From Muribaculaceae bacterium (GTDB lineage: Bacteria > Bacteroidota > Bacteroidia > Bacteroidales > Muribaculaceae), in contig JAFSYB010000054.1 in the NCBI GenBank assembly GCA_017443765.1, positions 1 through 64,000 on the forward strand: 64,000 nt of DNA, read 5' to 3'. This document shows positions 8,038-16,772 of the stretch, piece after piece. The notes beneath the pieces are model-generated. The model saw only the letters and a program-made list of their open reading frames with translations. It made no database searches and was not told where the DNA came from. Within the stretch, counting starts at the first letter, position 1; every line of letters begins with the position of its first letter. The position numbers were made by a program, and so were the translations under genes.

Positions 8038-9042
8038 CTATCTGAGCAGCGTGGCTGCCTCGTCGAGCAACCCTTGCACGAATGAGTCGCGAGTGGCTTT
8101 GCGCATCTCTTTGATACTTTTTACGCACAGGCGTTTCTCGTTGTCCGACAGCCCCACTTTTCCCGCTTGCTTGCACAATTTGAGCACGTTAGTGGCGTAG
8201 GCCGCCGCCGAGCTGCTTTGGCGTTTAGAAGCGCGCAGAAAGGCATTGCGGTAGTGATTGAATGCCGTCAGCCACGACACGTCGTCGGTGAACTCGCCGT
8301 CGGGATCCTGGGCGGTGCCCACCACGATGTTGCCCAGACCTTGCAAGGTCTCACTGTCGAGTGCCCCCTCCAGGTCGATGCCGTGGTTGCGCAGCTCATC
8401 GAGCACCTCGGCACTGCCGTCGGCAATGTCGCCAATCATACCCTTGAGCGTGGGGGCCAGCTCACGCAATGCCCCGGTCACATCATCGTAAAGCCCCAGG
8501 CTGTCGAGGGAATGTAGGTCGTCGCTCGTGAAAACCCGCGCTCGTTTGTAGGTTTTGCCAGCCGACGTGGGGCGTTTTCCGTAGGTGCTGATAAGCCGCC
8601 CGTCGAGTGAGCCATCATCTAATTCGGTCCATTCCACCACATAGCCGTGGCGGAATTGCTCGTTGTCGCGGTCAAGGAAGCAAATCACGCGGTAGTTGCT
8701 CTGCGAGTCGTTGCCCACAAGCACCGACTCTCCCTCGGTGCCGTAGGTGAGTGCAGTGGTGTGCCGGCCAGCATCGCCAGCCCGCTCGCTGAGCATATAG
8801 TAGGCCGCGCCCTGGTCTTGGTCAAAGGCCGTGAGCACATCATCTAAAAGCGAGCGACTGCTGAACCGATATATCTCAAGCAGCGCGGTCAGGCGTCCGT
8901 CGTTGTCGTTTTCCTGAAACACTCTCACCTGGCGGGTGTCGCCGCTTCTGTTCAGGCGTGCAAAGGCTTGGGTCACGTGCTGCTGCGCACTGGCGGCGAA
9001 TGTGAGCACAAAGGCCAGCATCATGGTTGCTAAGGGTTTCAT
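8038..9042 (-). CDS. Exported protein, third gene of an ECF sigma operon
   Basis: The 334-residue product begins with a signal peptide (MKPLATMMLAFVLTFAASAQ). The mature part is predicted soluble and mixed alpha/beta, with FLDRDNEQFRHGYVVEW and a helical, charged C-terminus ending near KSIKEMRKATRDSFVQGLLD. I do not recognise the family. It follows the putative anti-sigma gene by 43 bp on the same strand. That position suggests an exported component regulated by, or feeding into, the ECF sigma system; this is inference. Confidence 0.75.
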   Translation of the reverse strand: MKPLATMMLAFVLTFAASAQQHVTQAFARLNRSGDTRQVRVFQENDNDGRLTALLEIYRFSSRSLLDDVLTAFDQDQGAAYYMLSERAGDAGRHTTALTYGTEGESVLVGNDSQSNYRVICFLDRDNEQFRHGYVVEWTELDDGSLDGRLISTYGKRPTSAGKTYKRARVFTSDDLHSLDSLGLYDDVTGALRELAPTLKGMIGDIADGSAEVLDELRNHGIDLEGALDSETLQGLGNIVVGTAQDPDGEFTDDVSWLTAFNHYRNAFLRASKRQSSSAAAYATNVLKLCKQAGKVGLSDNEKRLCVKSIKEMRKATRDSFVQGLLDEAATLLR

Positions 9043-9085
9043 AACAATGATTCTATTGATGAAAGATTAAAGATGGTGAAGATAA

Positions 9086-9694
9086 TTATTGTATGTTAAG
9101 AGAGGCGTTCACCCATCCGCTGGTGGGCTGCTGCAATTGGCGCAGCTCCTGCTCAAGCAGGATACGGTCGGCAATCACTTCTTGCTCGGTGGCTTCCAGG
9201 TCGGCTTGCGTGTGGGTGATTTCGATGCTGTCCTGCCGGCGATGCTTGGGAGCGGCTTTCCGCCTGGCCCGCGCATGATGGGGCGTGATTCCGGCTGCGC
9301 GACTGTCATCAGAGCGCATAGCCAGGGTGTCGGCCATGAGTGGCTCAACGATGGAGTGGGCCACAATGGTGTCGGCGGGGATTGGCATGGAAGCCGGGGG
9401 GGAGTTCAAGGCTTTCCAACCCACGGTAATCAACACAGCGGCAGCTGCCGCAGCCCCCGCCCAACGCAGCCATCTCATTGGACGGTGCCGACGGGGTTTC
9501 GCGTCGATGAGAGGCATGCCCTGGTCGAAGTGGGCAAACATCCGCTGGTAAGGCTTCAAGCTATCGCACACCTCGTGTGTGGCGAAGAATTGGCTCAATG
9601 CCTGCTCCTCGTCGAGTGTGCTCTCGCCAGCCATGAAACGCTGCAATTGTTGTTCAACAGCGGCGAGGTCGTTGGGGTCGATGGCCTTTTTCAT
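9086..9694 (-). CDS. Putative anti-sigma factor, single-pass membrane protein
   Basis: This 202-residue protein has an N-terminal soluble acidic part (about residues 1-75, including LSQFFATHEVCDSLKPYQRM) and one membrane segment (WAGAAAAAAVLITVGW, about 82-97). A periplasmic tail rich in Arg, Glu and Gln follows. Its ATG overlaps the sigma gene stop by 4 nt (ATGA at 9691-9694), so the two are translationally coupled. This arrangement is typical of anti-sigma factors, although no zinc-binding anti-sigma signature is present. The role rests on topology and context. Confidence 0.65.
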   Translation of the reverse strand: MKKAIDPNDLAAVEQQLQRFMAGESTLDEEQALSQFFATHEVCDSLKPYQRMFAHFDQGMPLIDAKPRRHRPMRWLRWAGAAAAAAVLITVGWKALNSPPASMPIPADTIVAHSIVEPLMADTLAMRSDDSRAAGITPHHARARRKAAPKHRRQDSIEITHTQADLEATEQEVIADRILLEQELRQLQQPTSGWVNASLNIQ

Positions 9695-10200
9695 CTTTTA
9701 CTGTGGTTTTTGTCGTCCATGAATTGTTGCAACAAAGCCTTTCTGGCTCTCGAGAGCAGTGTCTTTGCCGAAGCCTCGCCAATGCCGAGCAACGAGCCAA
9801 TCTCGGCATAGCTGCGGTGCTCCACCTGGCGCATCACCAGCACGGCATGTTGGCGCGAGGGCAACGCCTCCACCAGGCTCATCAGCCGTTGCTCCTGCTC
9901 GGTGCTGATGAGTTGCTGCACCGGGTCGCACGATGGGTCGGCCACAATGTTCGCAGCTGCGACCCCATAGTTGTGGCGGCTGCGGCGCAGTGCATCGATG
10001 GTCAAGTTGCGCGACATCACGGTCACCAACGCCTCTGGCGAGCGGTAGTGCTTGAGTTTGTCGCGCATGAGCCACAGCTTGAGCAGCACGTCTTGTGCCA
10101 CGTCGTCGGCCTCGACATCACTGGCTCCGCACGAGTGGCTCACTGCCAGGGCCAGTGTGCGCCATCGGCGCGCTTGATGCTCAAAGTCGTGTCGCTGCAT
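9691..10200 (-). CDS. RNA polymerase ECF sigma factor
   Basis: The product is about 169 residues from the ATG at 10200 (MQRHDFEHQARRWRTLALAV). In-frame ATGs at 10224 and 10236 are alternatives. Region 2 is visible as ADDVAQDVLLKLWLMRDKLK followed by VMSRNLTIDALRRSR. Region 4 is SLVEALPSRQHAVLVMRQVE followed by the helix-turn-helix SYAEIGSLLGIGEASAKTLL. It redirects RNA polymerase to a small regulon, probably under control of the overlapping downstream membrane protein. No self-type promoter could be identified upstream. Confidence 0.9.
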   Translation of the reverse strand: MQRHDFEHQARRWRTLALAVSHSCGASDVEADDVAQDVLLKLWLMRDKLKHYRSPEALVTVMSRNLTIDALRRSRHNYGVAAANIVADPSCDPVQQLISTEQEQRLMSLVEALPSRQHAVLVMRQVEHRSYAEIGSLLGIGEASAKTLLSRARKALLQQFMDDKNHSKR

Positions 10201-10275
10201 AAGTCGTGGGGCTGTAGTCACCATTATGACGAACAAGTCACCTAAAAGTAAACACGCCCCCTCGGCTGTCGGTCG

Positions 10276-12756: not shown

Positions 12757-14817
12757 TTATTTGGATTTCTTCACACGGTGCGTGATTTTGAGCACGTGGC
12801 GGGTGTTGTCGATTTCAATCTTTCCCAGCTTGCTCAGCACCGACTGACCCAAGAGCAGCGGTGCCACCTGATTGCGCACGACGCTGGCCTGCACGTTGGT
12901 GAGCGTGAGGCCGCCAAAGTTCACATCGCGCAGGTTAATCACTGTGCCCTCGCTCACATCGCCGTTGGCGGTGAGGTAGTTGGCCTTTCCTACCACATCA
13001 CGGCTGCTCAGGTAGTCGTTCTTGAGCATGAACGTTGCCTCGACGTTCGACATCGACACCTGACTGGCCCCTGTGTCGAAGATAAAGTGCAGCGGCAGCC
13101 CGTTGATCGTGCATTTCACTTTGCACACCTTGCCCTCGGTGGTGAACGGCACCTCCACCACCTGCTCTTCGTAGTGGCCGTCATCCACAGCCTCGCCAGT
13201 CTCGAGTTCGGTGGCCAAAATGGCGGTGTACTCGTCGATGAGCGTTTTATACTCGGCCATGTCGCGGATGTTGTTCATGTCAGGGTCGTGGCTGATGTGC
13301 ACCATCTGCCGATACCCTTTCTCAAAGGCTTGCCGCAGCACATTCACAGCCTCCTGCCTGTCGCCTAACAGCGAGTAGGCGCAAGCGCAGTCGTACAACT
13401 CATTAGGATTGTTCCGGTATTTCAGCACTTGCTCTCCAAGCAGCTGGCGGGCTTTTTCGGGCTGGTCCAAAAAGGTGTATATGTAGATGTCGTGTTCATA
13501 GGGGGCATCGGCCACGGTGTCCAGTTCCTGCACACGCCTGAAGTGTTCGCGAGCCTCATCGTGCCGTTTCATGTCCCACAGCAGCCGACCGGTCATGAAA
13601 TGCCCGTCAACGTCGTCGGGGTCGATGGTGATAGCGGTGGTGTAATCCTCCAGTGCCCCCTCAAGGTCGCCCCAGTGAAAATACTTCATGGTGCCTCGCT
13701 GAATATAGCCGTAGGACACATCGGGTATGTGTGCGATAAGGGTGTTGGCATCGGCCAGGGCGGAGTCGAAGTCGCCGAGCATGACATAAATGTCGATGCG
13801 AGAGTCCAGCGTGCTCATATCGGTGGTGTCGGTTTCCCATTCTTTGTTAATCTGCTCCAACGCGTTTTTGCCGTCGCCAATTTGCATGTAGCATATGGCC
13901 AAACGATGGTTCACGACGGGATTCTCCTCTTTGGCAAGGCTGGCTTGGTACATCTCGATGGCCTTGCGGGGCTGGTTCACATGTTCATACATCCATCCCT
14001 GGCTGTTGACCCACACGATGTTGTTGGGTTCTTTGGCGGCCCGCACACGCAGCTTCACGTCGATGGTGGTCAGCGATGAGTCGGCAAGCTCGCCCAGCAC
14101 CTTGAAGGCATCACTGCCGGCATAGTTGTCGATGGCGGCAATGATGTCATCACAGGCTTCGTTGTAGCGCTTAAGGGCAATGCGGGCTTTGGCGCGCGGC
14201 ACCAGGGCGGACGTGTACTCGGGGTTGAGCTTGAGAACAAAGTCCAGCAGCTTGGCGGCGGTGTCCCAGTGTTCTTGCCGCATGGCGCAGTCGGCAAGCC
14301 CCATGTATCCCCTCACCTCGCCAGGGCTCAAGGTGGTGATGCTGGTATAGTCGGCCTCGGCTTTGTCCCACTGCTTACGCTTGGTGTAGTGACGGGCACG
14401 GTGCACATAGTTGTTCGTGTTGTCGGGATTTAACGCAATGGCTTGGGCAAAGTTGCGTTCGGCCTCGCCGTCCTCGCCCATCTGGGAGTAGGCCGACCCC
14501 AGCACCAGATAGGCATAGCTCACATATTCGGCATCTTTCTTGGGCACGCGCTTGATGGCCTCCTGCGAGCGCTTGATGGCTTCGCCAAACTGTTCCTGAT
14601 CAACGGCAATCAAACCGAGATACAAACTGGCATATCCATTCTTGGGATTCTCGGCCAGCTCTTTGGTGAAATATTCGATGGCCTGGTCATAGTCTTCTTC
14701 GCCATACAGCTCCACACCGCGCTGATAGTTGTAGGTATCGGGGCGCTTGATGTCCTTGGCGTTGAGCGTAAAGGTGACGAGTGCCACCAGGATGGCGGCG
14801 AAAATGCGGTGTTTCAT
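12757..14817 (-). CDS. Exported TPR protein with C-terminal retropepsin-like aspartyl protease domain
   Basis: The start at 14817 (MKHRIFAAILVALVTFTLNA) gives a clean signal peptide; an upstream ATG at 14886 would add a non-signal leader. Of about 686 residues, roughly 25-520 are tandem tetratricopeptide repeats, for example YDQAIEYFTKELAENPKNGY and GDLEGALEDYTTAITIDPDD. The last 140 residues form a single retropepsin-like domain with FIFDTGASQVSMS (catalytic Asp near 581) and a later LLLGQSVLSKLGKIEID segment. One DTGA motif implies action as a dimer (family knowledge). The upstream gene is a paralogue without the protease domain, and the gap between them is 10 bp. The substrate is unknown. 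Confidence 0.85.
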   Translation of the reverse strand: MKHRIFAAILVALVTFTLNAKDIKRPDTYNYQRGVELYGEEDYDQAIEYFTKELAENPKNGYASLYLGLIAVDQEQFGEAIKRSQEAIKRVPKKDAEYVSYAYLVLGSAYSQMGEDGEAERNFAQAIALNPDNTNNYVHRARHYTKRKQWDKAEADYTSITTLSPGEVRGYMGLADCAMRQEHWDTAAKLLDFVLKLNPEYTSALVPRAKARIALKRYNEACDDIIAAIDNYAGSDAFKVLGELADSSLTTIDVKLRVRAAKEPNNIVWVNSQGWMYEHVNQPRKAIEMYQASLAKEENPVVNHRLAICYMQIGDGKNALEQINKEWETDTTDMSTLDSRIDIYVMLGDFDSALADANTLIAHIPDVSYGYIQRGTMKYFHWGDLEGALEDYTTAITIDPDDVDGHFMTGRLLWDMKRHDEAREHFRRVQELDTVADAPYEHDIYIYTFLDQPEKARQLLGEQVLKYRNNPNELYDCACAYSLLGDRQEAVNVLRQAFEKGYRQMVHISHDPDMNNIRDMAEYKTLIDEYTAILATELETGEAVDDGHYEEQVVEVPFTTEGKVCKVKCTINGLPLHFIFDTGASQVSMSNVEATFMLKNDYLSSRDVVGKANYLTANGDVSEGTVINLRDVNFGGLTLTNVQASVVRNQVAPLLLGQSVLSKLGKIEIDNTRHVLKITHRVKKSK

Positions 14818-14827
14818 GTGTCTTGTG

Positions 14828-16453
14828 TTATTTGGTAGTGGGTAATTCGATTTGTGGTGTGCGTGCGCATTCAATGATTTGCTCAAAGTCGCTCATTCCC
14901 CGCAATGTTGCCAAGTCGTCGTTGTACATCAGCCAAATGGGCGAGATGTGTTCGCATTCCTGGGCTTGCCTGAGCAAGTCGATGGCTTGGCGTTTGTTGC
15001 CCATCAGTGCTTGCAACTTTGCAGCACACCGCAGCGTTTTGCAGCGTTGGGCGGGCGATTCGTTGCGGGAGAGCTGTAGGTCCATCAGCCGCATGGCTTT
15101 CTCGGCGTTGCCCAGGTGCATCGCGGCCAATGCCACCATGCACGATGTGGTGTCGGTGGTGTTGGTAGCAATGTGCTGCCAGTCGATGCGAGCGGCCTCC
15201 AAGTTGCCTTGCGACTGGTATAGGCAGGCACGGTTGTAGCGCTCATCGAGGCTGTTTCCGTCGGGTTCGAGCAGCACAATGGCAGTGGTGTAGTCGTCGA
15301 GAGCCAGGTCGGTGCGTCCGCAACAGTGATGAATCACGGCGCGCGTTGAGTAGCCGTCACTATCGTCGGGGGCCTTGTCGATATAGGTGTTGATGGCTGT
15401 GAGAGCCTCGTCGAGGCGAAATGCACACATTAATATGTTCGCCAGGCCATAGTAGTCGGTAACATTCGTGCTGTCGCGCTCAATCGACCGGCGTTTCACT
15501 TCCACAGCTTGGTTATAAGCCCCCACACCGGCATAGCAGCGGGCAAGCATGCCGTTCAGGTCGGCATCGTCGCCTCCCTGCGTGGCTGTTTCGAGGAGAG
15601 GGATGGCTTCGGTATAGTGACCCGACGACAACGACGCTATGCCCAACGCATAAATCCAGTTGTCGTCTTCAGGCTCGGCTTCCACCTTAGCTTTCAGCCG
15701 AGTGAACAGGACGGTGAACGAAGAGTCGGCCAGTTGGGTGATGCGCCGTAGAAGGGAGCTGTTGGGGGCGGTTGCCAGTGCCTCAATCAGGTCGTCGGCA
15801 GCGCGCTCATAGTCGTGGTTGCCTATATAAGCATCGGCTCGGAACATCAGAGCCGATGCGCTCATGTTGGAGTCGGCATCCAAGGCACGGCTGCACAGCT
15901 CCACTGCTCGGGCATATTGCTTGCGCTCGGTAGCATTGCGGCTCAGCCCAATCAGTGCATAGGCACTTTGGGGCTCAATCTTCAGCATCTGCTCAAAGTC
16001 GGCATCGCTGCGTGCCAAGTCGCCGTGCTTGTAATAATAGTCGCCGCGATAGTACAGATACTCCGCCTCCTTGGGCTGCAGCAGCACCGACTGGCTCAGG
16101 TCGGCCAGCTCGGCAATCGTGTCGCCCAACTGGTTATACAAATTAGCCCGCAGATGGTGGCTCTTGGCCAGCATCTCCTTTTTCTGGGCTGGAGTGAACT
16201 TGATGCTGCTGTTGATGGCGTTTAATGCCCCACCCAGCTGATTCGATTCATCGAGAATGGCCGCAATGTAGTACCATGACCCGGGATCCTCCTCATTGCG
16301 TTGCAGCTCTTGCAAAAAGAACTGCATGGCACTCTCATAGTTGCCATTCTCAAATTCTTCCTCACCGCGGCTGAAATTGTAGGTATTCCTCTCCTGACCG
16401 TGGATGCACGTGCCAAATAGCAGTGCAAAGATGATGATGAGATGTTTGTTCAT
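14828..16453 (-). CDS. Exported TPR protein, paralogue of the downstream TPR-protease
   Basis: This 541-residue protein begins with a signal peptide (MNKHLIIIFALLFGTCIHGQ). The mature start NTYNFSRGEEEFENGNYESA parallels DTYNYQRGVELYGEEDYDQA of the next gene. Tetratricopeptide repeats run through to a C-terminal NDDLATLRGMSDFEQIIECA, which parallels DPDMNNIRDMAEYKTLIDEY in the paralogue just before its protease domain. The two therefore arose by tandem duplication, with the protease domain gained or lost in one copy. It probably acts as a periplasmic protein-interaction scaffold. It is first in a two-gene operon. Confidence 0.85.
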   Translation of the reverse strand: MNKHLIIIFALLFGTCIHGQERNTYNFSRGEEEFENGNYESAMQFFLQELQRNEEDPGSWYYIAAILDESNQLGGALNAINSSIKFTPAQKKEMLAKSHHLRANLYNQLGDTIAELADLSQSVLLQPKEAEYLYYRGDYYYKHGDLARSDADFEQMLKIEPQSAYALIGLSRNATERKQYARAVELCSRALDADSNMSASALMFRADAYIGNHDYERAADDLIEALATAPNSSLLRRITQLADSSFTVLFTRLKAKVEAEPEDDNWIYALGIASLSSGHYTEAIPLLETATQGGDDADLNGMLARCYAGVGAYNQAVEVKRRSIERDSTNVTDYYGLANILMCAFRLDEALTAINTYIDKAPDDSDGYSTRAVIHHCCGRTDLALDDYTTAIVLLEPDGNSLDERYNRACLYQSQGNLEAARIDWQHIATNTTDTTSCMVALAAMHLGNAEKAMRLMDLQLSRNESPAQRCKTLRCAAKLQALMGNKRQAIDLLRQAQECEHISPIWLMYNDDLATLRGMSDFEQIIECARTPQIELPTTK

Positions 16454-16511: not shown

Positions 16512-16772
16512 GGTTGGTTCTATAAATTGCTCGAGTGGGATTTGAGGCTATGACTGAACAGATTATGATTTAAGGTTGATGGCTAATCGCGAGCAATTAG
16601 TCAAGATTCTAAAGCAAAATATGCCAGCCAATGTCCAAAGACCATCGAAACTATACATAACTAATTTGCATTTTATTGAACCCACCTAAATAATTTTACA
16701 CTGCAAAGGTAAGCATTAATGCACAATACACAATACACGGCGTATACTTTTTTGCTATTTATAGAACCCACC
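16512..16772. repeat. Intergenic region with dispersed inverted-repeat arms
   Basis: The 476-bp gap 16454-16929 holds no gene. GGTTGGTTCTATAAATTGC at 16512-16530 is inverted relative to TTTTATTGAACCCACC at 16671-16686 and to TGCTATTTATAGAACCCACC at 16753-16772. The same arms recur at 29719-29801 and, diverged, at 58557-58661. The TPR operon promoter lies between the last two arms. Confidence 0.7.
16703..16711 (-). promoter_or_regulatory. Candidate promoter for the TPR operon
   Basis: The reverse complement of 16703-16711 reads TACCTTTGC, the Bacteroidetes -7 element. A TTTG at the -33 position is not clear. The predicted leader is about 250 nt. Confidence 0.45.

Follow-up and report, generated by a model that had tools for sequence, protein, structure and literature searches.

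The window analysed here, a stretch of 64,000 nucleotides from a Muribaculaceae genome, carries two adjacent genes on the (−) strand that encode TPR proteins. The upstream gene (14828–16453) encodes P0002, a TPR-only protein of 541 aa without a protease domain (ORF and Pfam search), and the downstream gene (12757–14817) encodes P0001, a TPR-retropepsin protein of 686 aa with an ATG start (ORF, Pfam search and AlphaFold2). The P0001 frame in the mechanical ORF list opens 23 codons earlier, at a TTG, and it is the ATG start that gives the 10-bp gap between the genes (14818–14827). Signal-peptide-like N termini, read from the sequence, cover about residues 1–20 of both P0002 (16394–16453) and P0001 (14758–14817), and AlphaFold2 places a low-confidence helix at both N termini. 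These findings agree with the original prediction of two exported TPR proteins lying 10 bp apart.

A putative Bacteroidota-type promoter, TTG-N19-TAnnTTTG, was located 5′ of the pair (16704–16733, [−] strand) by pattern matching; the pattern occurs at 7 sites in the window, compared with 0.36 expected from shuffles, and has no match between the P0002 and P0001 genes. Since the gap is 10 bp and there is a single upstream promoter-like site, the two genes probably form one transcription unit. The flanking genes encode RNase R (rnr) on the downstream side and an esterase on the upstream side. Positions 8038–10236, which lie one gene away from the pair, hold an ECF sigma factor gene, followed by genes for a small protein containing a single hydrophobic segment and for an exported 334-aa protein with no Pfam match, a possible sigma/anti-sigma unit.

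The retropepsin-like domain and the two TPR arrays

The protease domain of P0001 (residues 567–662; 12832–13119) matches PF13975 with 62.2 bits against a cut-off of 28.2 (E = 7.5e-17) and PF13650 with 46.9 bits against 24.3 (E = 4.8e-12). P0002 matches neither in the same Pfam search, and P0001 is the sole PF13975 match in the whole window genome. The catalytic motif DTGA (D581–A584, within FIFDTGAS; 13066–13077) is invariant in the family alignment, and an LLLGQ motif (residues 654–658; 12844–12858) includes the invariant alignment positions L103, G104 and Q105. The clan AA signature includes a hydrophobic-hydrophobic-Gly motif; DTGA and LLLG are invariant or nearly so across 13 sequences, so that both clan AA motifs are present. 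Each P0001 chain carries a single DTG motif. Hence only the second protein of the pair has a retropepsin-like domain, with FDTGAS intact, as had been read from the sequence at the outset.

AlphaFold2 models this domain with low confidence (pLDDT of about 43 to 77). When its profile was compared with solved structures, the top match, which covered the whole domain, was APRc (5c9d; E = 1.6e-9), with DDI1 weaker (E = 0.002). The domain also matches positions 13–119 of the 121 in the NCBIfam model TIGR02281 for clan AA aspartic proteases, but scores below its cut-off of 57.95, both for whole P0001 (49.6) and for the domain alone (54.4). Caulobacter PerP, which is not known to be a TPR fusion, is grouped with this model. 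At eight further loci of the same genus (L011–L018), a retropepsin domain 43–50% identical to that of P0001 stands alone or N-terminal to repeats, typed by eye as TPR-like, Sel1-like or MORN-like; because of this variety, the domain appears to be a reused exported module in the genus.

The TPR arrays extend over 14864–16381 in P0002 and 13198–14739 in P0001 (about residues 27–540), on the basis of profile matches and AlphaFold2, with a TPR_END_plus motif at the end of each. Both are TPR proteins by several matches above the Pfam cut-offs, and both are modeled as superhelices (mean pLDDT of 89 for P0002 and 82 for P0001) whose helices, about 30 in each array, match nearly one to one. In BLASTP, P0001 27–528 aligned with P0002 23–528 over 509 columns with 10 gaps (E = 5e-46; identity 25%). 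As TPR proteins all resemble each other, we applied a register control, in which the in-register band scored 440 and bands displaced by whole TPRs scored at most 86, ruling out chance or generic TPR likeness. The alignment thus runs from the mature N terminus to the last helix, and both methods bear out the similarity of the arrays, which fully confirms what the original prediction had observed.

The array fold also occurs outside the pair: contig C93 of the same genome (G000) encodes a 546-aa TPR-only protein that is related to P0002 in register, though more weakly (22% identity, E = 7e-14). This protein (L112, 9879–11519) is predicted to be exported and is encoded directly upstream of a predicted 791-aa lipoprotein. 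The top PDB fold-search matches of P0001 were TPR superhelices, eukaryotic and designed; they carry no information about the protease domain, which is poorly modeled.

Occurrence, neighborhoods and descent of the pair

Relatives of P0001 at E ≤ 1e-60 were found in 24 of 297 genomes of the family and 7 of 393 genomes drawn from the order, the window genome being counted in each, and among 345 genomes sampled across the phylum the window's own genome was the sole match. These counts indicate a TPR-retropepsin family that is patchy and centered on Bacteroidales. Of the 101 genomes searched in the genus, 18 have a match to P0001 at E ≤ 1e-40, two of them through TPR-only genes cut by contig ends. 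Full-length TPR-retropepsin genes are mostly single-copy, without a twin.

The pair, sought in other genomes as originally suggested, was present in several. Besides the window, the order protease-free then protease occurs in four genomes, all of the same genus: G743 (L029), with RecO upstream; G027 and G033, with cytidylate-kinase-like (cmk) and IspH-like (ispH) genes downstream, named by eye from the sequence; and G154, with a gene for a metallo-beta-lactamase-fold protein upstream. Copies in G714 and G728 that look protease-free are truncated by contig ends and were left out. Taking an active copy as one with an intact DTGA motif, P0002 is a paralogue without the catalytic domain encoded beside an active copy, and related tandems were seen elsewhere. 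In G729, protease-bearing and protease-free copies are adjacent in reverse order, and a third copy at another site (L097, 5296–7329) has a full-length domain with the motif degraded to DPTAKN. Three family genes stand in a row in G561: a 312-aa LDTTAT copy (L095, 5479–6417), its catalytic motif degraded, a copy without the protease domain and an active one. An active copy is followed in G086 by a YDPKSN copy (L089, 2109–4127), also with a degraded motif; all three degraded copies are candidate pseudo-proteases. G528 carries a tandem in which both copies are active, and in G429 the active copy is preceded by TPR-only open frames that overlap and are possibly broken.

Some relatives, single-copy ones among them, lie in a different neighborhood. 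A CHAT gene was found within 10 kb of the TPR-retropepsin gene in 7 of 32 genomes (0.25 expected; Poisson p = 9e-9, ignoring kinship) and a caspase C14 gene in 6 of 32 (0.32 expected; Poisson p = 1e-6, again ignoring kinship); three of the linked loci come from a single genus. The linked loci (L092, L093, L084, L080, L077, L085 and L068, in G683, G528, G117, G266, G331, G171 and G018, respectively) carry TPR-CHAT and/or C14 genes, most with signal-peptide-like N termini and often with sigma-factor-like genes nearby, and possibly represent an exported multi-protease module. Sigma-like (below the Pfam cut-offs), von Willebrand-like and Tubulin_2 genes also neighbor some relatives. At E ≤ 0.001 the window genome yielded neither CHAT nor C14 genes, and such a neighborhood therefore does not account for the window pair. 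Two side observations concern the surroundings of TPR-retropepsin genes. The TPR-CHAT frame of L092 (G683) contains an in-frame stop after the signal-peptide part (near 2560–2650), reflecting a broken gene, a sequencing error or separate genes. ADP-ribosylglycohydrolase genes, one of them fused to DUF1810, recur near TPR-retropepsin genes at L076, L077 and L094 (cluster c18).

In a tree of the TPR part, the well-supported branches require a minimum of three switches between protease-bearing and protease-free forms. Five species of a single clade retain the pair while its flanks change, and the two genes show matching branching orders there; the pair has thus been passed on as a unit. In an AU test, a grouping of P0001-type and P0002-type sequences as each other's nearest relatives in this clade was mildly rejected (p = 0.015, with long branches); a recent duplication inside the clade is therefore not favored, although weakly so. 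Because of this result and the TPR-only relative elsewhere in the genome, P0002 may descend from an old TPR-only lineage rather than being a recent copy that lost its protease. Protease loss is the simpler reading in G729, since the protease-free copy nests among that genome's own protease-bearing copies. A search downstream of protease-free copies found no protease remnants. A phage or plasmid origin was also considered and rejected, the matches amounting to one plasmid record for the protease domain and one phage record with a weak TPR match.

Substitution rates were compared by the Nei-Gojobori method in two pairs of genomes, because synonymous divergence is near saturation in wider comparisons. 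Between G027 and G033, dN/dS was 0.007 for the protease domain, 0.107 for the TPR part of P0001 and 0.161 for P0002; between the window and L029, where synonymous divergence is already high, the values were 0.040, 0.259 and 0.333. Very strong purifying selection keeps the protease domain almost frozen, and P0002 evolves fastest yet is constrained. These values indicate that the protease is functional and that P0002 is not decaying.

Comparison with known systems

Related bacterial retropepsins are dimeric with one DTG motif per chain, and those that are exported influence the tolerance of envelope stress (PMC12239564). Among them, Pseudomonas RloA is exported and dimeric, and it shares an operon with genes, one for an inactive transglutaminase among them, whose loss suppresses the protease mutant (PMC12239564). 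RloA and RimB resemble P0001 in their small retropepsin-type domain with one DTG motif; unlike P0001, they have no TPR array and no described protease-free paralogue, and the operon partners of RloA are unrelated to the protease. No RloA-type operon (RloB, an inactive transglutaminase, and RloC, an ATP-grasp protein) was found at the window locus, where the neighbors of P0001 are its TPR twin, RNase R and an esterase. Rickettsia APRc (ApRick, RC1339; PDB 5c9b, 5c9d and 5c9f), the closest solved structure by sequence profile, has neither a TPR part nor a paired paralogue, and its own role is disputed (PMC10414592).

Regulation by a catalytically dead paralogue has been shown for AdoMetDC-prozyme, in which the paralogue activates the enzyme (PMC5201418). 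The combination of an active enzyme with an inactive paralogue is shared with P0001 and P0002; the difference is that our pair is known at the gene level and that P0002 lacks the whole catalytic domain. In type III-E CRISPR systems (PMC9729208, PMC10028731), TPR-CHAT likewise joins a TPR array to a protease domain; as it is a cytoplasmic, CRISPR-bound cysteine protease, the likeness is one of analogy. A paper on conflict systems (PMC7159879) mentions neither aspartyl nor CHAT. Bacterial retropepsins and dead-paralogue regulators are thus both known; in partial literature coverage we found no published description of TPR-retropepsin fusions or of their combination on tandem exported TPR arrays, in line with the original statement that no described system of this kind was known.

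Function of the pair and alternative readings

We propose, with a probability of roughly 45%, that the pair encodes a dimeric periplasmic aspartic protease and a co-encoded non-catalytic paralogue that modulates or supplements it. P0002 and P0001 would be transcribed as one unit, and P0001 would reach the periplasm by export and act there as an aspartic protease through its C-terminal retropepsin-like domain. With a single DTG motif per chain, two P0001 copies would have to pair to build the active site, by analogy with the dimers of related bacterial enzymes. The TPR superhelix of P0001 may be a recognition or scaffold part that aims the protease. P0002, which keeps the superhelix without the protease domain and would be made together with the protease, is unable to supply a catalytic Asp and is therefore cast as a non-catalytic partner: a modulator or adaptor acting through hetero-assembly, or a protein handling a related, non-identical client. 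That several relatives separately arrived at a similar pair of an active and an inactive copy points to a role of the inactive copy in helping or controlling the protease. These recurring tandems are the main support for a partnership, which the sequences make plausible; the main objections are the many genomes without a twin, from which it follows that the protease needs none, and the divergence of the TPR groove between the twins.

The groove also bears on the original proposal that both proteins act on the same periplasmic ligand. Concave helix-A positions of TPRs usually bind ligands. When we placed the TPR register on the arrays and compared each P0002-type protein with its own P0001-type twin (five pairs; a rough estimate), core positions were 35.1% identical, groove-facing concave helix-A positions 17.5% and all others 24.9%. 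The groove, as the least conserved class, points away from one common ligand; the alignment of the arrays and the recurrence of the pair stand, and the shared ligand is weakened. The same divergence, together with the overall identity of 25% and the distant TPR-only relative on C93, which has no protease, agrees with a serious rival, though one that we consider rather unlikely: that P0001 and P0002 are independent exported receptors for different clients, adjacent merely through tandem duplication. This would leave unexplained why the pair is kept through changes of flank in five species and why similar active and dead tandems recur in other lineages. That P0002 is a decoy, competing for the ligand or substrate of P0001 and so buffering or inhibiting proteolysis, fits the equal length and register of the superhelices and the repeated evolution of protease-free twins, but seems improbable with the concave faces less alike than other positions.

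Finally, the family as a whole might be an exported multi-protease stress or conflict module, of which the window pair is a reduced remnant. The excess of CHAT and C14 genes near the relatives, with the sigma-like, von Willebrand-like and Tubulin_2 neighbors, speaks for it; against it are the window genome, which has neither gene type, the pair-bearing loci of the genus, which lack such neighbors, the origin of three linked loci in one genus and the subthreshold sigma matches, and we regard it as very unlikely.

To return to the partnership of protease and non-catalytic paralogue, a broader and more doubtful extension is that Bacteroidales repeatedly evolved a periplasmic switch, in which a TPR-retropepsin would be controlled by a tandem protease-free or dead TPR paralogue in a prozyme-like manner undescribed for retropepsins. 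To our knowledge, few substrates or regulators of exported bacterial retropepsin-like enzymes are known. A near-frozen catalytic part, set against a fast-changing TPR part and twin and paired independently with an inactive copy in several lineages, offers a natural and testable case that bears on how a dimeric aspartic protease may be targeted and restrained in the periplasm of gut-type Bacteroidales.
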